Shown here one piece after another: positions 10,209-28,367 of a DNA stretch of 35,361 nt; positions within the stretch are counted from its first letter, which is position 1; each line of letters starts with the position of its first letter. Made by a program: the position numbers and the translations under genes. Source of the stretch: a bacterium (GTDB taxonomy: Bacteria; Patescibacteriota; Patescibacteriia; UBA9934); assembly GCA_020053275.1 (NCBI GenBank), contig JAGVNL010000033.1, forward strand, positions 1 to 35,361, read 5' to 3'. Under the pieces are notes generated by a model. The model was given only the letters and a program-made list of their open reading frames with translations, ran no database searches and was not told where the DNA came from.

Positions 10209-10238
10209 AAAAAATAGCCACCGAAGTGGCTATTTTTT
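10209..10238. terminator. intrinsic terminator-like hairpin downstream of tRNA (minus strand)
   Basis: AAAAAATAGCCACcgaaGTGGCTATTTTTT. Confidence 0.8.
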
Positions 10239-10314
10239 GGTAGCTGGGGCGGGAATCGAACCCGCGACCTAAGGCTTATGAGTCCTTCGCTCTAACCGAC
10301 TGAGCTACCCAGCT
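10238..10314 (-). tRNA. tRNA with CAT anticodon (elongator Met or Ile2), CCA encoded
   Basis: AGCTGGGTAGCTCAGTCGGTTAGAGCGAAGGACTCATAAGCCTT...GGGTTCGATTCCCGCCCCAGCTACCA cloverleaf. Confidence 0.93.
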
Positions 10315-10321
10315 ATGCTAC

Positions 10322-10441
10322 GACTTCCTGAATTGGCCTATTTTGGGCTTGTAGTTGCGCCGACTCTCTCAACTCACGGCTCTAGTGAGTCTCGCGAGCT
10401 CGGCTTACTCCGCACCCAAACTAGTCTCAATTCAGAAAGTC
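10322..10441. ncRNA. candidate structured RNA/DNA element, copy 1
   Basis: Same architecture as 27841-27959; conserved GGCCTATTTTGGGCTTGTAGT and GCACCCAAACTAGTCTCAA around covarying stems. Confidence 0.6.
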
Positions 10442-10560
10442 CTAGCTAGTTATTGTTAATGATTGCGGCGGTACTATAGCAAGTGTTGGGCTTTCTGACA
10501 AGCCGAGGGGTTGCGGAAACGGCCACTATTTGTTACTATTTTTTGGCGTTAATGTTCCTG

Positions 10561-10646
10561 GCCGCGGTGGCGGAATGGTATACGCGACGGACTCAAAATC
10601 CGTTTCTCGAAAGGGATTGAGGGTTCGAGTCCCTCCCGCGGCACCA
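10561..10646 (+). tRNA. tRNA-Leu(CAA), CCA encoded
   Basis: GCCGCGG...CCGCGGCACCA acceptor, long variable arm, loop CTCAAAA. Confidence 0.95.
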
Positions 10647-10650
10647 AAAA
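10622..10650. repeat. attachment site (tRNA-Leu end) of integrative element
   Basis: GGTTCGAGTCCCTCCCGCGGCACCAAAAA identical to 19841-19869. Confidence 0.9.
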
Positions 10651-10683
10651 CATCCTTCCCCAAGAGGGTTGTTTTTGTTTTTA

Positions 10684-11808
10684 TCATAGCCACGTTTCAA
10701 TTAACTGCAATGGCCTGGTATTAGCCTCCTGCGCCCATGTGTTGACCACCTGTTGCCCACGATTCGCCATTTGACCTCCCAAAAGGTCAACGGCACGTCT
10801 TAATGACGTTGAAGCAACGTGGGCATATTTCTCAGTCATGGTAATGGTCGTGTGTCCTAGCAGCTCCTGGATCTCACGCATGGCCGCTCCACGGTCTACA
10901 AGCTGAGTAGCGAAGGTATGACGAAGTGTGTGCCATCCAACCTCTCGAACGCCTGTACGCTGGCATATACGAGTTAGGGCACGATCGGCAGCGTCATAAC
11001 TACGCATACGTTCACCGTCATGACCGAACAATAAGCCCTGCTTTTTCTTGACTAACCAGAATGCCTGCATCAGGTCATTAGTGATTGGGATACTACGTGT
11101 TCTGTTACTCTTAGGGGAAGTCATTACTCCCCGGCTGGCAGAACGACGAATAATGATAGTACTCTGGTTTATGTTGACATCGCTCCAATCTAAGGCCAAA
11201 AGCTCGCTTACTCGCATTCCAGTAAGCAGTGCCATTCTAACCATCAGATTCCATTGCGGTTCCTGTTCATCAGAAATGAGTTGCAAACATTCTTTGTCAC
11301 TAAGATAATCAATTCTACCCGGTGGGCGCTTTAACCACTGAATACGTGGCACAGAGCCAATCTGACCCCAGTCAAAGGCAGACTGCAAGCATCGACGCAG
11401 AACTGTGAGATGATTATTTATTGTTTTAGGCGAGAGTCTAGAACGCAATAGCCCTGCCTTATAACGCTCAATGGACAGAACGTCGATCTCATCAATTAGT
11501 GACTTGCCAAATGCTGGCACAAGATGACGTGACAGAATATAGCGCTTTGCACGCTGCTCGGACGCTTTATTGTTAGTGACTACGAATAGCTCGAACCATT
11601 GCTTGGTGAATTCCTCAAAGGTCTTATTAGTCTTCACTGCAGCCCCTACGTCCTCGCCTCTGGCCAGCTTCATGCGTAAAGTGGCCTCATAGGCGGCTGC
11701 TCCGGCTCTGGTGTTCTCAGGGCTTCGTATACGATAGCGCCTGTACTTGAATCGGAAGTCAGTCCACCAACTACCGTGGATTAGTCGTGCGCTCATACTC
11801 ATTCTCAT
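10684..11808 (-). CDS. int: tyrosine recombinase/phage-type integrase
   Basis: ALLTGMRVSELLALDW, WHTLRHTFATQLVDRG, LLGHTTITMTEKYAH catalytic motifs. Confidence 0.96.
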   Translation of the reverse strand: MRMSMSARLIHGSWWTDFRFKYRRYRIRSPENTRAGAAAYEATLRMKLARGEDVGAAVKTNKTFEEFTKQWFELFVVTNNKASEQRAKRYILSRHLVPAFGKSLIDEIDVLSIERYKAGLLRSRLSPKTINNHLTVLRRCLQSAFDWGQIGSVPRIQWLKRPPGRIDYLSDKECLQLISDEQEPQWNLMVRMALLTGMRVSELLALDWSDVNINQSTIIIRRSASRGVMTSPKSNRTRSIPITNDLMQAFWLVKKKQGLLFGHDGERMRSYDAADRALTRICQRTGVREVGWHTLRHTFATQLVDRGAAMREIQELLGHTTITMTEKYAHVASTSLRRAVDLLGGQMANRGQQVVNTWAQEANTRPLQLIETWL

Positions 11809-12013
11809 TAACAGCTTTCACGAGGCAATTAGCCAAATACGCCTCGACATCCGAAATACGGAAGCGAATGTATCTAGCTAATCGGTAAAAACGAATGCTG
11901 CGGCGTTCAATCATCCGGTAGACACTAGCTTGGGAAATTCCAAGATATGTCGCCAGTTCTTTAATGCCGATCAGCTCTCCGTTCTTAATTGTGGCCTCGT
12001 TTTGGCCGTTCAT
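11771..12013 (-). CDS. excisionase-like/MerR-type HTH protein
   Basis: IGIKELATYLGISQASVYRMIERRSIRFYRLARYIRFRISDVEAYL (HTH_17-like). Confidence 0.85.
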   Translation of the reverse strand: MNGQNEATIKNGELIGIKELATYLGISQASVYRMIERRSIRFYRLARYIRFRISDVEAYLANCLVKAVNENEYERTTNPR

Positions 12014-12111
12014 ATTAAATTGTGAATGAGCAACGATTCCAGGAGCGCTTGCACGCCCATGAGCAACGTTGCCATTTTACATGATTTTGTTAAATCTGCC
12101 CTAAGCTGTTT

Positions 12112-12672
12112 TTATAAGGGCATATCTTCCAAGTTGATAGTTAGAGCATCTGACTGAGCACGCTTCCGGTTAAACATCGTTTTCTCGCCTCCTCCCTGCA
12201 TGCCACTCATCATTTTTTCACGAGCGGAAGTCGGCTTCACTTTATTTATATTATCCTCATTTAGTTTCTCTTCAATTACCTTGTCTTCAGCTGACACATG
12301 TCCGTCATCTATCTGACATTTGTCTGACAAAAAGTCTGGAAATTCGCTGATATTAGCCCTGTCCCTACGAAGCTTTTGATATTTATACCAATTCGGGTGT
12401 GCGATATATATACCATTTTCGTCGCTGTATAATTCGATAAGGCCTACTTCAACTATGCGATCTATCATTTTTTGTGTCTTCTCTGGGCTTACAGACCAGT
12501 ACGGGAAAATCTGACTCCTTAAATATCGTGGATTACCTTTTAGTTTACCCTCGTCATCCCCTAGGCTTATCATGCCAATGTATAGCATCACCTCGATTGG
12601 CTTGAGTTCTGTCACTTGATTGCTTGACCATATTTTTGAGTAAAGCATTCTGCAACGAGGAATCATATTCAT
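12112..12672 (-). CDS. phage/plasmid replication-initiator-like winged-HTH protein
   Basis: LKPIEVMLYIGMISLGDDEGKLKGNPRYLRSQIFPY...IAHPNWYKYQKLRRDR resembles phage replisome-organizer N-termini. Confidence 0.5.
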   Translation of the reverse strand: MNMIPRCRMLYSKIWSSNQVTELKPIEVMLYIGMISLGDDEGKLKGNPRYLRSQIFPYWSVSPEKTQKMIDRIVEVGLIELYSDENGIYIAHPNWYKYQKLRRDRANISEFPDFLSDKCQIDDGHVSAEDKVIEEKLNEDNINKVKPTSAREKMMSGMQGGGEKTMFNRKRAQSDALTINLEDMPL

Positions 12673-12686
12673 TATGCATTTATGCT

Positions 12687-12947
12687 TTACTCGGCTGAGT
12701 AAAGGCGTGCTTTAATCTCTTTTGTGGCGTAGTGAAATGATTGTGGCTCTACGAGCAGTTCTTTTTTGTGGTATTGCTCTATAATTTGCATTAAATTCTT
12801 CGTTTTTTCAAAAACGAAATTAGTTCGTCGAGGATCGCTTTTATCGATCGCTACTATCGGAGAGTAAAGACTTAAAGTCACAATTAGAGGAAAGTCTGAG
12901 ACATTTAGATAATCACTCGATTGCAGAATTTCATTTTTCATACACAT
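12687..12947 (-). CDS. DUF5659-like small protein
   Basis: FPLIVTLSLYSPIVAIDKSDPRRTNFVFEKTKNL pattern. Confidence 0.4.
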   Translation of the reverse strand: MCMKNEILQSSDYLNVSDFPLIVTLSLYSPIVAIDKSDPRRTNFVFEKTKNLMQIIEQYHKKELLVEPQSFHYATKEIKARLYSAE

Positions 12948-13033
12948 AAAATGACGGCTTATGCCGCCATTATATTAAAGGGAGTATAGATTTTAATTGG
13001 GGGTGAGAAGAGCCTTATTTTACTCAACAAGAT

Positions 13034-13819
13034 CTATTCTTTGGTCTCGTGATGGGGTTTAAAAAGTGCTACTTCACCTTTAGCTGTGGATAAAAGTGCA
13101 AAGTTAAATGATTTAATCGTTCTTTTATTTAGTTCGACTACAGCATTACGAATCGTGTCGATATGAGATTCATCCAAGTCTTTTCCAATCAATCCAGTTT
13201 TAGAACGAGCTATATCTTCAATGCTGGCATATTCGCCGAAGTCGTGATTTTTAAACATATAATTTACTAAAAAATCCTCATTCCTGCCCCTGGCTAATTT
13301 ACAAACCGAATCGAAGTACCTAATGATGCTCATAGTCGCTATGTACTCTACGGGCGACCAAGCCCTGCTTTCAATGTCACGGTACATCCCAGCCAATATT
13401 TTAAGCTTTGTTACGAGGCGTTCCTGATATTCAAAATCACTAATGTTCCTATCAATAGAAGATGAATCATTAATAAACCTTATTACTGGTTCTTTGTCTT
13501 CAAAAATTTCAGGTATCTTGCTTTCAATTGATAATTGCCAATTCAGTACTTTACTAGCAAAATCGCTGAGTATATCACTGGACCATTCAGGCAAATCAAA
13601 TGATGAAGACGGTGCAAATCTTGCTATAAATCGTTTTTCTTGGCGTTTTTCCAACTCTTTGTAATTCGTTGAAACAGCATCAAATGAATTACGGATTAAA
13701 TCTCCCTCCGTAATCCACTCGTTTATAATAAATAGCGCTTTATTGAGGGAAATTTTACATTTCATATTCATTTTAGTTTTTATTTTATCCTTTATAGCCC
13801 GTATCGGAAATGGAAGCAA
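13034..13819 (-). CDS. hypothetical protein of the integrative element
   Basis: Long ORF; no family recognised; true start may be an internal Met. Confidence 0.6.
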   Translation of the reverse strand: MLPFPIRAIKDKIKTKMNMKCKISLNKALFIINEWITEGDLIRNSFDAVSTNYKELEKRQEKRFIARFAPSSSFDLPEWSSDILSDFASKVLNWQLSIESKIPEIFEDKEPVIRFINDSSSIDRNISDFEYQERLVTKLKILAGMYRDIESRAWSPVEYIATMSIIRYFDSVCKLARGRNEDFLVNYMFKNHDFGEYASIEDIARSKTGLIGKDLDESHIDTIRNAVVELNKRTIKSFNFALLSTAKGEVALFKPHHETKE

Positions 13820-13840
13820 TCATCAATAATCGCTAGATAA

Positions 13841-13869
13841 TTGGCATTTTGTCTAGAAAACGTTATACT
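13841..13869 (+). promoter_or_regulatory. sigma70-type promoter
   Basis: TTGGCA - 17 nt - TATACT. Confidence 0.65.
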
Positions 13870-13875
13870 GCCCTT

Positions 13876-14017
13876 GTCGAAGTTCAAGCCACACATGAGG
13901 CCTTTTTGGCTGTTTCGGATCGCACGCAATAGGCGGCATCCAGTTAAAACAGCACTCGTACGATCCGTCGTGCGTGGGTTGGGCTTCGACACCACTGGGT
14001 GTCGCTTTTTGTTTTTT
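13876..14017 (+). ncRNA. structured leader/attenuator-like RNA or stand-alone ncRNA
   Basis: Stem TTGTCGAAG/CTTCGACA overlaps terminator stem CGACACC-act-GGGTGTCG-CTTTTTGTTTTTT; preceded by promoter. Confidence 0.55.
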
Positions 14018-14035
14018 AGTTATCGATCATTGAAT

Positions 14036-14656
14036 ATGACTTTTCAAAAAATATTGAGAATATTGGGCATCATTGTTGCGGTGGCTTTAGGCATTGTTGC
14101 GCTGGCTTTAGGTAATTTAGTAGTCGAATACTTACATGAAAAAAACTTTTCACTAGTTGTAAGTGAGGTACCGCCATCTCTCAGTGCCGATATAGGCACA
14201 GATGGCAACTTCTCGAGCATAGAAGACGGCTTTGCTATTAAATTCCCCAGTAAGCCAACTACCACATCACAGGACGAGTATATTTCCGAGGGAATAAGTA
14301 TGCAATTTAGTGACTACTTTACACGTAAAAACGGAGCATTGTATTTGGTGCAAGTTTCTGATATATCAGATTTTAGTTTTCCTCCTGATGCATTAAATAA
14401 ATTAAACTTGCAAGGAGTAGTTGATAATATGATCAGCGGAGGTGACGGAGAACATGTAATATCTCAGTCGGAAGTCAATATTAGTGGCTATAAGGGCATT
14501 AAATATTTTATTAGTATTACTGGAGGCTATATCGATGGATTTACCTTTCATGATAGCTCCAAGTTGTATACTGTGGGAATTCACTATTCAGTTGGTACAG
14601 AGCCCAGTCAGAATGAGATCGATGACTTTATTTCCTCTTTCAGATTAATTCAATGA
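14036..14656 (+). CDS. membrane-anchored hypothetical protein (single N-terminal TM)
   Basis: MTFQKILRILGIIVAVALGIVALALG TM segment; upstream part of the listed ORF overlaps the structured RNA. Confidence 0.7.
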   Translation: MTFQKILRILGIIVAVALGIVALALGNLVVEYLHEKNFSLVVSEVPPSLSADIGTDGNFSSIEDGFAIKFPSKPTTTSQDEYISEGISMQFSDYFTRKNGALYLVQVSDISDFSFPPDALNKLNLQGVVDNMISGGDGEHVISQSEVNISGYKGIKYFISITGGYIDGFTFHDSSKLYTVGIHYSVGTEPSQNEIDDFISSFRLIQ

Positions 14657-14679
14657 CAGTGGCGTATTCTTAGCCCGAT

Positions 14680-15120
14680 ATGAAAAATAAAAAGGAGTGG
14701 GCTATATTAGTTTTCGTGCTACTTCAATTATTTTTGCTTTATGCTGGAATACACGCAATAGCTGAGGGTATAGGTATTGCTAAATCATATGATGAAGAAG
14801 CGGAATATGATGAGGGGGGCGGAATCGTTACCCTCATCACTCTAGTGGATGGAGGGTTGATTCTTTGGCTTCTTCGTCATTTTGAAGGTGCCATCCGCAA
14901 AAGTGAAGCAGAGAAAGAGACACTGAAGTGGGAGAGGTTGGTAAGGCTCGAAAAACACAAAATTCAGACTAAATATGATGAAATAGTATCAGGATTGAAT
15001 AAAGCTATATACAAACAGATGCATCAAGTACTGGACGAAAAGTCGCTGAGACGAATACACGAGATAACAGAGCGAAAGGTGGGTGAAGAGCTTGATCGAA
15101 GAGAGTTAACGGCTGATTAA
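14680..15120 (+). CDS. small two-TM hypothetical protein
   Basis: Two hydrophobic segments followed by a charged helical tail. Confidence 0.6.
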   Translation: MKNKKEWAILVFVLLQLFLLYAGIHAIAEGIGIAKSYDEEAEYDEGGGIVTLITLVDGGLILWLLRHFEGAIRKSEAEKETLKWERLVRLEKHKIQTKYDEIVSGLNKAIYKQMHQVLDEKSLRRIHEITERKVGEELDRRELTAD

Positions 15121-15455
15121 AAGGAGAGGGAGGTTTTAGGTAAGGGTATGCAGCTGGAGTTCCAGCTTGAATTACTGCCTATATGTTAAAAATAACCGTC
15201 ATTATTGAACACGAAAAAGGCCATGTATTGCCTAAGCTAATCTAAGAACCAATTTTCAGGTTTTTAGTACTTTTGGAGTTTTGAGGGCTTGTAGATTAAC
15301 GTTTGCTGGATTGCTAAAATTGCACCTATAGTTAGCTATTTAATCATCATCTCCTGAGAATCAAATACAAGGTTTTACGGAGAATTAACCATGTGCTACC
15401 TTGAAATAAAAGTTACTGGTAACATGCCATTATATTTCACTATTTTTACTAAAGT

Positions 15456-16451
15456 ATGTCCGAAGCTCAACAGGCTGATAAATTTCAAACTATCTATGCC
15501 TCACTTATCCCACTTGCTGAGACAGCCTTAAAATCAATGGAGGATCGTCTAAGGGCATCATTGCGGGATTATTTTTGGCCGAATGAAAGTTTCCCAATCA
15601 TAACTAGTCGTGTCAAGGATAGGCTCGGATTTCTCGGTAAACTCATTGAGAATGGAATTGATACTGAGAGCCCCTCCGAAATTTTAAAAGTCAAAACAGA
15701 TCTACTCGGTATTAGGATAGTTGTGGCTTCTCGTGAACAAATTGAAAGAGTTCTAGAGATGCTTAGGGATTCCAGTAATCCATGGGAGATACAGCATACC
15801 GCTGCTTACACTGGTGATGCCGAAGAAAGGGAGTTTTACGAAGTTATTGGTTTGGACGATGCAGCAACTAAGCCCACCGGGTACTGCGGGGTACATTTTG
15901 ACGTTTTATTAAATGATACAGATGGTAAGCCACGCTGGGTTGAAATTCAAATTAGAACAAAGATTCAAGACGCATGGCAGGGCGTCGATCACCTGATTTA
16001 CAAGGCTGAAAAATGGCTTCCAGATGAATTTCTAATGCTTAGGAAAAGTTTAGCTGGTCAGTTTGAGGCTGCAGAAAAGGCACAGCGTTTTATTTTTAAT
16101 TATGTAGAGAGTCAAGTTCTCGCCAAAAACGAAAACCTAAAATTTACAGAGTTATATAAGTTGTTTGATTGGTCAAAAATAATTGGCCTGCCGAAGAATT
16201 TTCGTAACCAGATCGTTGGCTGCGCAGGGCTTCCTTGGTACTGGTGGATTGCGCCTGATACTGGTATGAGATATTCGTTTGTCATTGAAAATCCAAAAAC
16301 TCACCCAATGAACCAACCGCTGACACTGGTAACAACTGAGCATATGCTGGAGCAACGGCCCGATCTCATGAAAAAAGTTATCACCCTACCGTGTGAATTT
16401 TTGGCCAATATCGAATTGGCTGGCAATGTTGAGCTAAAGAGTTTTACATAG
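15456..16451 (+). CDS. RelA/SpoT-domain nucleotide pyrophosphokinase (small alarmone synthetase-like)
   Basis: SRVKDRLGFLGKL, DLLGIRIVV, TGYCGVHFDV, VEIQIRTKIQDAWQGVDHLIYK motifs; no HD domain. Confidence 0.85.
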   Translation: MSEAQQADKFQTIYASLIPLAETALKSMEDRLRASLRDYFWPNESFPIITSRVKDRLGFLGKLIENGIDTESPSEILKVKTDLLGIRIVVASREQIERVLEMLRDSSNPWEIQHTAAYTGDAEEREFYEVIGLDDAATKPTGYCGVHFDVLLNDTDGKPRWVEIQIRTKIQDAWQGVDHLIYKAEKWLPDEFLMLRKSLAGQFEAAEKAQRFIFNYVESQVLAKNENLKFTELYKLFDWSKIIGLPKNFRNQIVGCAGLPWYWWIAPDTGMRYSFVIENPKTHPMNQPLTLVTTEHMLEQRPDLMKKVITLPCEFLANIELAGNVELKSFT

Positions 16452-16563
16452 ATAATCTTACCGTTTGACGTCGCCCTACCATAGGCGTATATTATATTTA
16501 TTCTTGGTGAAGTATTGGTATCAACTAGATATCGATCACAGAAGCCAAATACATCGATATAGA

Positions 16564-16620
16564 TTGTATTTGATCTGCAAAAACACCTTGCCAAGGGTGT
16601 TTATTTAATTTTTAGTGTCA
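16564..16620 (+). terminator. intrinsic terminator-like hairpin
   Basis: AAACACCttgccaaGGGTGTTTATTTAATTTTT. Confidence 0.6.
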
Positions 16621-16627
16621 TTAGACA

Positions 16628-18154
16628 TTGAAAATAACTTCTCGATATATGTCAGTAAAGAACCAGCCAAATGCCGGAAAACTAATTTCTTCCTTGAGAA
16701 ACACGGGATACGATAGTTATACCGCAATTCAAGATATTGTAGATAACTCTATCGATGCTGGAGCTAGGAGGATCGAAGTGAGCGTAAAAACAGTTGATGG
16801 TGAGCCTCGCATCATGATTGCAGACAATGGTTCCGGAATGTCGATGGAGATCCTAGACGAAGCCCTAAAATTGGGATCGGCTACTCAGAAAGATGAGATG
16901 TCGGATCTGGGAAAGTACGGCATGGGACTGTGCACAGCATCTATCTCGCTATCGAGAAAACTTCAAGTTATCTCACGCAAGTCCGGCGGCCCTTATCTCT
17001 ATAGTTCACAGGATCTAGATGAAATTATTCTGGAAAATGAGTTCATTAAGGATAGACGAGAAGCCACTAATGATGAAATTAACTTGTTCAAAAAGGAAGT
17101 TAATGATGAGAGTGGAACGCTGGTTATCCTGAGTAAGATTGATAGGTTGTCTAACACTAACTTAAGTATTTTTGCGGGCACACTAGCTGGTTCGATGGGG
17201 AGAATTTATAGGAAATTCATTGACTCAAATATTAATATATCAGTTAATGGAAAGAAGGTTGAAGCAGTTGATCCTTTAATGCTTTCTTTAAAAGGTAGCA
17301 CCGTTTACTCTGATGAGGAATATACTGTTCCGACTAAGTCCGGAAAGGATAAGATCCAGGTTAAAGTAGTCATACTGCCTGATGTAAATGAGCAACTTGA
17401 AAAGGAGATGAAGATGAATACCCACTCTCAGGGATTTTATATCTTGCGCAATAATCGTGAAATTGCTAATGGCCTGACACTTGATATCTTCCGAAGGCAT
17501 AATGACTTTAACCGTCTACGTCTTGAACTTTCATTCACCTCCAACCTTGATAACGAGATGGGCGTAAGATTTACAAAAGATGGTGTGTCACCCAACCAGG
17601 CCATCAGCGACTTCCTAAAACAGGAAATTGGTGGGCAGATTGCTTCGATAAGAAAAATCTTCCTAAAATCTAGGATCGCAGACTCTTCAAAAGAAATTGA
17701 TCACGAAGAATCGGCATCAGTCATCGCTAAGAAGTCGAAGCTGCTGATTACACCGGATGCTATAATTGAGCGTAGAGCTGCTCGTACAAACGTAGAACCT
17801 AGGGATAAACCCGAAAAAGAAGGCACGGAACGTGACCGAGTTCCAAAAGAAACCAGAGTCTCCTCTAGTGGGCTAGGAGCACGTTTTGAGACTTTAGCGA
17901 TGGGAAAGAACGGCCCACTCTATGACTGCTACCAGGAAGGTAAGGTTGTAGTTATTCAGTGGAACGTCGATCACCCATTTTACGAGAAAATAATCTTCAT
18001 GAATAAGGATAGAAAGGACATTACCGCAGGCATAGATTACCTGATCTACGCACTCGCTGCCGCTGAACTAAAAACAACAAACGATGACAACTCTGAGCTT
18101 ATTGGCACTATTAAGTCTATTATGTCGGCGAATCTCTGTTCGCTTCTATCATAA
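16628..18154 (+). CDS. GHKL (Hsp90/MORC-like) ATPase
   Basis: AIQDIVDNSIDAGARRIEV (N box), IADNGSGMSMEILDEALKLG (G1), LGKYGMGLCTASISL (G2). Confidence 0.88.
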   Translation: MKITSRYMSVKNQPNAGKLISSLRNTGYDSYTAIQDIVDNSIDAGARRIEVSVKTVDGEPRIMIADNGSGMSMEILDEALKLGSATQKDEMSDLGKYGMGLCTASISLSRKLQVISRKSGGPYLYSSQDLDEIILENEFIKDRREATNDEINLFKKEVNDESGTLVILSKIDRLSNTNLSIFAGTLAGSMGRIYRKFIDSNINISVNGKKVEAVDPLMLSLKGSTVYSDEEYTVPTKSGKDKIQVKVVILPDVNEQLEKEMKMNTHSQGFYILRNNREIANGLTLDIFRRHNDFNRLRLELSFTSNLDNEMGVRFTKDGVSPNQAISDFLKQEIGGQIASIRKIFLKSRIADSSKEIDHEESASVIAKKSKLLITPDAIIERRAARTNVEPRDKPEKEGTERDRVPKETRVSSSGLGARFETLAMGKNGPLYDCYQEGKVVVIQWNVDHPFYEKIIFMNKDRKDITAGIDYLIYALAAAELKTTNDDNSELIGTIKSIMSANLCSLLS

Positions 18155-18190
18155 GTAACTATTAAAACTGATATCCTAAGGTATTAGAAC

Positions 18191-18226
18191 AAAACTCGAT
18201 TATTTAATCGAGTTTTTGTTTTAGTC
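18191..18226 (+). terminator. intrinsic terminator
   Basis: AAAACTCGATTatttAATCGAGTTTTTGTTTT. Confidence 0.8.
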
Positions 18227-18392
18227 TAACTCAACCTAATATTCTATTCTCAGGATTGAAGAGCTTAAAATTCTACAACTTATCAATAGCGCAACAGTCC
18301 AAGCCATAGCCAATATTAGTCATGGATAGTAGTATAATATAAAATTAAATATAATTTTCAGCCTACAGAATTACACATATCTGATCACTTCT

Positions 18393-19043
18393 ATGGACCT
18401 TTCATTAAAATCGGTACTTTGGTCGCACGCTACCTTGCGACATGATTATGATACACTCTCGAGGATCGTTGATTATTTTGTAGCAGGTGACAGGGTGCAC
18501 AAAGAACACTGTACTTTGAAAATATTACAAAACATCCAGTCTACTAATTGGCAGGAAAAATACCCGTCACGTCTTTTCGTATTCCTTGTGTACAGCTCGA
18601 TTACCTATACTTTGGATGGAAGAAAATATATAGAAATGGAAACGATGTTGCTCTGCCAAGTCGTAGAGCTATTACATTACACTTACTTCGGTACTGGTCG
18701 CACAAACTTTGATGATAAGGTGAAGATGTTATACGAAACCTATTACGACTATCACTTCAACACAAAAACGGGAAATATTATTCGGATTATTAGGAATAAT
18801 ATTGCTCACACCGGAGCGATTGGCGGCGTGAGAGAGAAGATGAAGTCGACAGATATGATCGTAATTGATCAACTAGCAACAAAGTCAAGCACAACTCTTA
18901 TGGAGATAGCATTCTCATTTAACCTTCTCGTTATGGATATGGTCGTGAGGACGTTAGGACTGGAGTTCAATGACCTTGCGAGGAATGGTCTTCAGCCTTA
19001 CGCCAATGATCATTTCCGGGGAAATAAAAAAGCTGGTAACTGA
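18393..19043 (+). CDS. hypothetical protein with HEPN-like Rx4H motif
   Basis: IIRIIRNNIAHTGAI contains R-N-N-I-A-H in a helical protein. Confidence 0.45.
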   Translation: MDLSLKSVLWSHATLRHDYDTLSRIVDYFVAGDRVHKEHCTLKILQNIQSTNWQEKYPSRLFVFLVYSSITYTLDGRKYIEMETMLLCQVVELLHYTYFGTGRTNFDDKVKMLYETYYDYHFNTKTGNIIRIIRNNIAHTGAIGGVREKMKSTDMIVIDQLATKSSTTLMEIAFSFNLLVMDMVVRTLGLEFNDLARNGLQPYANDHFRGNKKAGN

Positions 19044-19079
19044 CCTTAAAACCTAACTAACCCTATAATTACTGAACTT

Positions 19080-19532
19080 TTATTCACCTATTCTGCTAAT
19101 TCCAAGGATAATCTTACGGTTGATAGTTGCTCTTTGCGTCATTTGTTTGTCTGATAAGTTCCTCTTACGCCATGTATCAATATAGAAATCCCTCTGCCAG
19201 CCAGTGAGGATATTTTGTTTGTATGCCAGCTCGATTACGTCGGGATTACAAGCAGATTTATCGTCCCCCTTTATTCTCTTTAATGCATTGAATAGTTTAT
19301 TTGAGTTCAAGCCTATAAACGTCTGTACACAATGGTTTCCGACTGTAATTACATTTTCGTTTTTTGAGTTTTTAATCTCGCATAATTCTGTAATTGGAAA
19401 ATGGCCGCATGCGCATTCTTGGGGTTCAGTAACCTGATATATGTTCTCGATGTGCCATTCGAGACGTGCCTCATCCCAAGTTGGAGCAACGCTATTTTGC
19501 AGTACTTCGCTTATCAGTTTGTTATTAGCCAT
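19080..19532 (-). CDS. Cys-rich putative zinc-binding small protein
   Basis: CACGHFPITELCEIKNSKNENVITVGNHCVQTFIG. Confidence 0.5.
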   Translation of the reverse strand: MANNKLISEVLQNSVAPTWDEARLEWHIENIYQVTEPQECACGHFPITELCEIKNSKNENVITVGNHCVQTFIGLNSNKLFNALKRIKGDDKSACNPDVIELAYKQNILTGWQRDFYIDTWRKRNLSDKQMTQRATINRKIILGISRIGE

Positions 19533-19840
19533 AGTATTATTTTACCGATGCTACCATATCTCACTGAACTCCGGAATAGGCACTATTATGTAATATTTTT
19601 CCACATCAGTGATATTTCTGATTTATTCAGATGGGATTTATGCGGTAAATCAACATACACCTATAGTATGAAACTCCATCACTCCCCGGAGGTGTTGCCC
19701 ACCCGTTGCCCATGAAGTGATGAAATCTACATCTCTCTGTGAACCAGTGAGGACTAGTGAGAATGGTAAAATGGCCTAGCTAAAGCCATTTTACGCATCT
19801 TTACTAGTAACCATGCAATAAGCCTATTTTAGGCTGATAA

Positions 19841-19869
19841 GGTTCGAGTCCCTCCCGCGGCACCAAAAA
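19841..19869. repeat. distal attachment site of integrative element
   Basis: 29-bp identical copy of the tRNA-Leu 3' end. Confidence 0.9.
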
Positions 19870-27036: not shown

Positions 27037-27834
27037 TTAGACTATAGCTGAAACCGTTTGCAACGGCAAGATGCCGGTCCAGAAAGGTTGGGTGGGGTGG
27101 CCGGGGACATGGTAAAGGACGGTATCGTGAACACAGGCGGCGAGGGCGGCGACATCGGCGCCTTTGAGAGGATAACGGAAGAGGCCGTCATATGAACTGT
27201 CGCGGGCGAGGCGGAGGAGTTGGACGACTTCTTGGCGGAGGGGCGTGGCCAGGAACCACTCACCGGGATTTTTGGCGATGCAACTAGAGCAGACGAGCCC
27301 CCCACGGCCACCATGCCAACGGAAGGATAGTGGGACGATTTCGCCTTCACAACCAACGCAATGGTCGAGGGCTACATTGTAACCGAGCTGGCGCATTAAG
27401 CGGAGGAGAAAGCCGCTCAACAAAAAAGTGCTGCGGGTGGGGTGCAGAGTTTCTTGAGCCTCGAGAAAATGGAGCCAGGTGGTTAGCTCGGCGTAGAGTA
27501 TGGCGTCTGCTGCTTCCTCGCGGATGATTTTGTCGAGCAAGCCAGTTGATGTGAGAACGAGCAAGCGGTGATCAACCGAGGTGGCAAGATGAGGAAAAGC
27601 ATGACGGCGCTCAACGCCGATGACGGTGATAGAACGGGCACCGCAGATTATTTCGAGATCGAGGATGGCGCACGGTTCTAAATGCGAGGCGAGTTTGGCC
27701 AGAGGCTTGGCGGCACCGCGGCCAAGGAACTCGAGCTTGCCGTAGCCTGGCGTCAACGCAGAATAACGGCGATCAGCTTCGCGCCAAGGAGCAACAGATA
27801 AAATTATGGCTTCGGTTTTGATGCTCGCCCACAT
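27037..27834 (-). CDS. recO: DNA repair protein RecO
   Basis: KTEAIILSVAPWREADRRYSALTPGYGKLEFLGRGAAK, CVGCEGE...CSSC. Confidence 0.9.
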   Translation of the reverse strand: MWASIKTEAIILSVAPWREADRRYSALTPGYGKLEFLGRGAAKPLAKLASHLEPCAILDLEIICGARSITVIGVERRHAFPHLATSVDHRLLVLTSTGLLDKIIREEAADAILYAELTTWLHFLEAQETLHPTRSTFLLSGFLLRLMRQLGYNVALDHCVGCEGEIVPLSFRWHGGRGGLVCSSCIAKNPGEWFLATPLRQEVVQLLRLARDSSYDGLFRYPLKGADVAALAACVHDTVLYHVPGHPTQPFWTGILPLQTVSAIV

Positions 27835-27840
27835 ATATAT

Positions 27841-27959
27841 AACTTCCCCATTTGGCCTATTTTGGGCTTGTAGTGTCGAAAACTTTTTCGACTTAGCACT
27901 AACTAAGTCTCAAAAGCTTTTCTAACTATGCACCCAAACTAGTCTCAAATGTGAAAGTT
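27841..27959. ncRNA. candidate structured RNA/DNA element, copy 2
   Basis: See 10322-10441. Confidence 0.6.
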
Positions 27960-28367
27960 CTATGTTAAAGTCTGGATTCGTAATTCGTCTAAGTGAGCCT
28001 GGAGGACGAGTTGGGCGGCGATGGCGTCTTCCTGGGCTTTGACGCCGAATTCTTGCTGCATACGGCGGGCTTCTGAGGACGAGAACTTTTCGTCCGCGGT
28101 GATGATTTGGAGTTTGGTACCTGCGGTCAGGGTGGCGATGAATTTGAGAGTGAGGTCAACCTGTGCAGAAGAATGCTCGGGGTTGCTTTGGTATGGGACG
28201 CCAACCACAAGAGCGTCGATAGCTTCGGTTTTGGCGAGTTTAAGAATGTATGGAATGGCCTCGCTGCCGCCTGGGATAACTTCGAGAGGAAAGGCTAAGC
28301 CAGAGCTGTCGTCGCCGATAGCTAAGCCAATTTTTTTGAGGCCGAAGTCGATGCCAAGGAAGCGCAT
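27960..28367 (-). CDS. ruvX: Holliday junction resolvase-like YqgF/RuvX
   Basis: FLGIDFGLKKIGLAIGD, VVGVPY, DEKFSSSEARR. Confidence 0.92.
   Translation of the reverse strand: MRFLGIDFGLKKIGLAIGDDSSGLAFPLEVIPGGSEAIPYILKLAKTEAIDALVVGVPYQSNPEHSSAQVDLTLKFIATLTAGTKLQIITADEKFSSSEARRMQQEFGVKAQEDAIAAQLVLQAHLDELRIQTLT

Follow-up and report, generated by a model that had tools for sequence, protein, structure and literature searches.

A dispersed rod-hairpin element of Candidatus Uhrbacteria, probably mobile as a folded single strand and polar in its placement at tRNA ends

Two segments of about 120 nt, alike in their loops and different in their still-paired stems, raise the question of whether they belong to a structured RNA or to DNA that moves. 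They lie in a stretch of 35,361 nucleotides (the window) from a Candidatus Uhrbacteria genome (G000), where both were found at the coordinates given by a first-pass annotation, complete with the blocks that they share on the 5' and 3' sides and the differing yet paired stems that it had described. The full elements are slightly longer than it had them (Table 1), and the structural features it listed are present, but it had read the pairing on the plus strand and the minus strand is the one that folds better: RNA folding gave z = -8.3 for copy 1 and -7.2 for copy 2 on the minus strand, against -5.8 and -5.3 on the plus strand, and none of 200 dinucleotide shuffles was as stable as either copy on either strand. 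A gap of 2 nt separates the 3' end of copy 1 from the 5' end of tRNA-Met, an arrangement shared by three species, since orthologous copies occur in G004 and in G001, a genome of the same genus that served as sister species for site comparison. Copy 2 occupies the whole ruvX-recO intergenic space; the stop codon of ruvX, which is upstream in transcription, overlaps its 5' edge, and recO starts directly after its 3' end on the same strand. A covariance-model scan of the window found only these two copies, but the genome has about 21 full ones.

Table 1. Features of the window, and copies from other loci that carry additional hairpins
Feature	Position	Strand	Basis or remark
Element copy 1, rod hairpin, 130 nt	10317..10446	-	covariance-model match, 119.8 bits, E = 3.6e-25
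Copy 1, apical hairpin, sense GACTCAC TAGAGCC GTGAGTT	10371..10391	-	alignment and fold
Copy 1, tandem G.A loop below apical hairpin, 5' half, sense GA	10392..10393	-	53/54 and 54/54 conserved (columns 61-62, 54-member alignment A6)
Copy 1, same tandem G.A loop, 3' half	10369..10370	-	54/54 and 53/54 conserved (columns 85-86, 54-member alignment A6)
tRNA-Met(CAT), adjoined by copy 1	10238..10314	-	ARAGORN
Element copy 2, rod hairpin, 129 nt	27836..27964	-	covariance-model match, 121.3 bits
ruvX	27960..28367	-	Pfam RuvX PF03652
recO	27037..27834	-	Pfam RecO_C/RecO_N
tRNA-Leu	10561-10646		
Island, 9.2 kb	10646-19841		
Island tyrosine recombinase	10684-11808		PF00589
Island excisionase-like gene	11771-12013		HTH_17
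Island RelA/SpoT-domain protein	15456-16451		
Island HSP90/gyrase-type ATPase	16628-18154		HATPase_c_3
Copies with additional hairpins	L164 8300-8455, 17325-17507; L168 5024-5206; L174 5242-5385, 8452-8618; L074 1501-1659		

The suggestion that conserved loops and compensatory stems reflect selection for structure was borne out when more copies were compared. In a MAFFT alignment to which no structure had been fitted, 26 of 41 pairs show double compensatory changes. In an alignment of 54 members, whose fitting to the model favours the structure, such changes affect 44 of 45 pairs. Of its pair cells 95.3% pair, while shuffles reach 67.5% and slid structures no more than 46%. Cells that have changed on both sides number 621; shuffles give 163.5 +/- 13.7 and slid structures about 100. 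Despite the fitting, the slid controls are far lower. Covariation in the element is far above chance, and a transposon-like decay of primary sequence that breaks the pairs was not seen, as copies keep their pairing. The outer stem of the rod is variable yet always paired; the rod further has purine mismatches, recurrent tandem G.A loops, a bulge of one base and an apical hairpin, under which the GA/GA loop is essentially invariant. Mismatches on the sense strand are purine-purine in 84 cases and pyrimidine-pyrimidine in 5, and 62 cells are G.T as opposed to 23 A.C; these excesses mark the sense strand as the one that folds. The G.A richness of the conserved loops is confined to one strand, so a particular single strand is the form that folds and is under selection.

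Additional perfect hairpins are present in some copies of a genome of genus g7 (G020) and in one copy of G000 (Table 1), all of them at internal loops of the rod, where they form junctions. They take the forms CCCCGC..GCGGGG, GGTATGAAG..CTTCATACC and one of the CCGGCGGAGCCGG kind, and in some of them TGA or AA is repeated at the junctions. The two types that were searched for in the fetched G020 DNA occur inside elements only. Some G020 copies (for example L160 18245, L166 18162 and L173 8797) end at the 3' side in GGAC and not GTCC, which is a reverse complement of the four bases that turns two Watson-Crick pairs into tandem G.A, and this end can therefore still pair with the GGAC of the 5' side.

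The element is not confined to one genome. A DNA search of G000 found about 16 related places, and a minus-strand covariance model built from 15 copies found 21 full copies in its 786 kb (0.79 Mb). Extending such a search to related genomes, as the first-pass annotation had proposed, added members in the order, the class and the phylum. The first model matched in 21 of the 23 genomes of the taxonomic family, and at the order level the element is present in 41 of 73 genomes; a second model, built from 54 diverse members, matched in 38 of 286 genomes sampled from the class and 29 of 380 from the phylum (E <= 1e-6 with strict filters in both cases, covariance-model E-values being rough and the genomes metagenome-assembled). 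Some genomes carry tens of copies, up to about 100 in Uhrbacteria, and genus g7 is very rich, with about 55 sense matches in 373 kb of G020 and 33 matches in 396 kb of G018. Distant members retain the architecture and have almost no stem letter in common. A pattern scan of named genomes placed nearly all matches in MAGs of Candidatus Uhrbacteria, the few single matches elsewhere being due to chance; non-Patescibacteria and viral contigs with chance short-pattern matches gave no model match, except for one contig labelled Saccharibacteria, and 66 kb around unrelated genes gave none. Viral carriage was rejected because both IMG/VR pattern matches fail the covariance model. The Saccharibacteria-labelled contig has a lone degenerate copy (L245 7678-7805, 56.6 bits, E = 1.5e-10), so that either the host range is wider or the MAG carries the wrong label. 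Against Rfam release 15, the window has only tRNAs above the gathering threshold, and at a permissive threshold the best weak match of the element reached 15.2 bits where the cut-off is 80, so the family that had gone unrecognised in the sequence has no Rfam counterpart at either threshold. The open-access literature on repeats in Uhrbacteria and the candidate phyla radiation yielded nothing on such elements, and the family is apparently undescribed so far.

Comparison of sites between species indicates gain or loss of copies. For ten G000 sites both flanks were found in fetched G001 DNA; eight of these, the copy 2 site among them, are empty there, one is truncated and one is occupied, the last being the tRNA-Met site of copy 1. 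Further pairs of filled and empty sites were found between G018 and G020, and an element in a 23S-5S rRNA spacer of G020 (both rRNAs confirmed by Rfam rRNA models) has an empty counterpart in G018, with flanks that are 99% and 95% identical. Several G020 copies differ by few bases yet have unrelated flanks, and internal-deletion derivatives are also present. One orthologous occupied site has kept the ends of its element around an interior of the type common in its own genome, which points to gene conversion between copies. An autonomous parent with its ends split around a gene was also considered and rejected, as the sole orphan-arm pair matched no listed outlier gene; we take this pair as a chance pairing of motif variants from two complete elements.

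The placement of copies next to tRNAs follows a strict polarity. In 769 kb of G018 and G020 there are 16 element-tRNA junctions within 6 nt, where intergenic insertion at random would give 0.34 (no more than 4 in any of 2000 simulations). The element has its 3' end toward the tRNA in 15 of them, of which 12 lie on the 5' side of the tRNA and 3 on its 3' side. The one exception involves an element that already has a tRNA against its 3' end, the junction being with its second neighbour. In other genomes, distant families among them, the same polarity holds in 28 of 28 junctions, 19 on the 5' side of the tRNA and 9 on the 3' side; these loci include a few orthologues and, in one case, a single locus entered twice (L078 and L220). 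Among all junctions examined, therefore, the 3' end of the element faces the tRNA in 43 of 44, at either tRNA end. Elements at tRNA 3' ends (12 junctions) are antisense to the tRNA, so a function in the pre-tRNA leader fails to explain the polarity, whereas a rule of insertion geometry does. For copies away from tRNAs, the 3' flank is on average no more structured than the 5' flank (p = 0.52). In G018 the spacer between tRNA-Leu and tRNA-Val consists entirely of one element (L121 13671-13964), and between the same two tRNAs G020 has the outer stem of an element only (contig C3 31460-31600, in L166).

These observations bear on the new structured RNA class that the first-pass annotation had offered as a possibility. 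As a rival explanation, the element would be an ncRNA or a cis-regulatory RNA that acts in the transcripts of its neighbours, and the copies would be functional regulators. The strong fold with its covariation and the preference for G.U and G.A on one strand would suit such a class, as would the position of copy 2 before recO and the fact that most tRNA-linked copies stand directly 5' of a tRNA on the same strand. Pairing is also preserved in place at orthologous occupied sites, where 33 pairs are double-compensated, 8 changed on one side and 6 broken in comparisons that are not independent; this could reflect a host function instead of selection for mobility. However, the elements, which lie mainly between genes in genomes of about 87% coding DNA, are oriented at random to the flanking protein genes (24 sense and 30 antisense by crude ORF calls, p = 0.5), have no consistent downstream gene and unrelated neighbours, are missing from most sites in the sister species and, at tRNA 3' ends, are antisense. 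Empty sites, unrelated flanks and random gene orientation mean that the element is not a fixed RNA gene, and a cis-regulatory RNA or riboswitch was rejected for want of orientation bias, mostly empty orthologous sites and unrelated neighbours. Dispersal, polymorphism, lack of orientation bias and tRNA polarity are better accommodated by mobile DNA than by a transcribed regulator, and we regard a primarily RNA identity as unlikely, though the best placed of the alternatives. Another option that the annotation had named, a recombination substrate formed by ssDNA hairpins, is supported.

The element thus occurs in many copies, is gained and lost at sites, compensates its pairing, has strand-specific loops and is sited with polarity at tRNAs, and our favoured explanation, which we hold to be rather probable, is that the segment is one copy of a mobile element that is about 125-130 nt long, non-autonomous and dispersed, and that is active as one folded single strand. 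The active form would be the minus strand of the window, single-stranded and folded into the long rod, and an enzyme would recognise this folded strand, most likely as ssDNA, in the way TnpA-REP does for REPs. Insertion would have a fixed polarity, the 3' end of the element being joined to another structure of the same strand at its 5' foot; a tRNA cloverleaf or its complement would be a favoured foot. Interiors would be exchanged among copies by ectopic recombination, the fold would be maintained by selection for mobilisation, and the element may have an RNA stage. Binding of TnpA-REP to folded single-stranded REPs is strand-specific, and the enzyme cleaves next to them (PMC8266576); a TnpA-REP-like enzyme could therefore act as proposed. 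We suggest more tentatively, and at somewhat short of even chances, that the elements form a phylum-wide mobile class of Patescibacteria in which a folded single strand is recognised mainly by its shape, a rod with recurrent tandem G.A loops, and inserted with fixed polarity by an enzyme at the foot of folded DNA such as tRNA genes; if so, the lineage would have a mobilisation chemistry of its own, separate from the relatives of REPINs, MITEs and integrons.

A REPIN-type repeat moved by the REP-associated tyrosine transposase (TnpA-REP, a Y1 HUH enzyme) is a slightly weaker candidate than the RNA class. REPs and REPINs are intergenic, high-copy and hairpin-forming, act as strand-specific ssDNA and have conserved mismatches or bulges with compensatory changes (PMC3116915, PMC8266576), the compensatory changes being reported for REPINs (PMC3116915). 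The element resembles the REPINs or BIMEs that go with TnpA-REP (RAYT) as a mobile, intergenic, high-copy and strand-specific ssDNA hairpin, and it too has a strand-specific fold with conserved irregularities, namely the 84 versus 5 mismatches and the invariant GA/GA. REPINs, however, have two REP hairpins and a constant tetranucleotide tag, while the element is one 130-nt rod with no GTAG-like tag, and it is phylum-wide with a fixed polarity at tRNA ends. Y1_Tnp proteins are encoded in many of these genomes, but there was no match in G020, which has the most copies, or in G011, G036 and other many-copy genomes; their presence does not follow copy number, and the Y1, reverse transcriptase and Xer-like genes examined have no element within 1.5 kb. 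A retroelement-dependent (SINE-like) reading was rejected because RVT_1 had no match in G020 or G004, both with many copies. Y1 transposase, reverse transcriptase and integron integrase were all set aside as partners, none being associated with the elements, and since these enzymes are missing or far from the elements, the mobiliser may act from outside the genome or belong to a family beyond those tested. The genomes G000, G001, G016, G022 and others have several reverse transcriptases each, of about 340-370 aa, a size typical of diversity-generating retroelements; these are absent from G020 and G004.

The frequency of elements beside tRNAs could also mean that they are host-beneficial spacers that flank tRNAs, aid processing or insulation of the tRNA precursor, are kept there for that reason and have spread secondarily elsewhere. 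In the sampled G018 and G020 DNA about 29% of tRNAs (12 of 42) have an element at the 5' end, and the tRNA-Met copy is common to three species, but 71 of 87 copies are not near tRNAs, tRNAs that lack the element are common and the 3'-side copies have the opposite sense, which makes this role improbable. Poorer still is the case for an ordinary MITE with long inverted repeats, moved by a DDE transposase. The element is like bacterial MITEs in being small, non-autonomous, high-copy, intergenic, insertion-polymorphic and built as an inverted repeat, but its terminal inverted repeats are not constant in sequence, the outer stems covarying between copies, and a one-strand fold under selection and polar tRNA siting are not features of MITEs. 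No clear target-site duplication was recognised in the alignments of filled and empty sites, where flank identity is 70-99%, and no fixed terminal sequence could be recognised, as the outer stem differs among copies. Instead of a direct or TA target duplication, the terminal dinucleotides covary as inverted pairs. Two or three loci hinted that each outer stem derives from its target, an idea that the full set of 15 did not support. An integron attC-like cassette recombination site is scarcely credible, for attC sites do fold from one DNA strand with structure more conserved than sequence, as the element does, but no integron integrase (TIGR02249) was over the family cut-off in 12 genomes and the elements are single, dispersed and in both orientations, with no cassette arrays.

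Set beside other hairpin repeats, the mobile element that we favour resembles the ERIC or IRU sequences of enterobacteria, which are intergenic imperfect palindromes of about 127 bp and have no known mobiliser either. No tRNA polarity is known for ERIC, and ERIC as described is conserved in sequence, whereas the element, with stems that differ in sequence, keeps only its fold and loops. Mitochondrial repetitive hairpin elements are mobile, lie in intergenic DNA and in rRNA and tRNA neighbourhoods and show complementary substitutions (PMC2800124), but they are short single or double hairpins of organelle DNA and share neither the rod architecture nor the tandem G.A loops. The element thus works like REPINs, ERIC and the mitochondrial hairpins yet stands outside any known family, and there is a substantial chance that it is a distinct class.

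In Patescibacteria the genomes are tiny and little mobile DNA has been described, and a high-copy mobile element that is conserved in shape and present across the phylum would show how small genomes gain intergenic structure. The near-absolute polarity at tRNA ends would point to a single-strand recombination enzyme that can be searched for. For RNA discovery, the family illustrates that strong covariation among repeats is not by itself proof of an RNA gene, and the covariance model, the empty sites and the tRNA polarity together give a computational handle on how hairpin repeats move, including ERIC- and REP-like ones.

The window also has an island beside tRNA-Leu, with a tyrosine recombinase and an excisionase-like gene (Table 1). 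It is absent in G001, where the flanks meet with an overlap of about 29 bp, and it is therefore an integrated element with a short att core. The genes for a RelA/SpoT-domain protein and an HSP90/gyrase-type ATPase inside it are possibly cargo such as a defence module.
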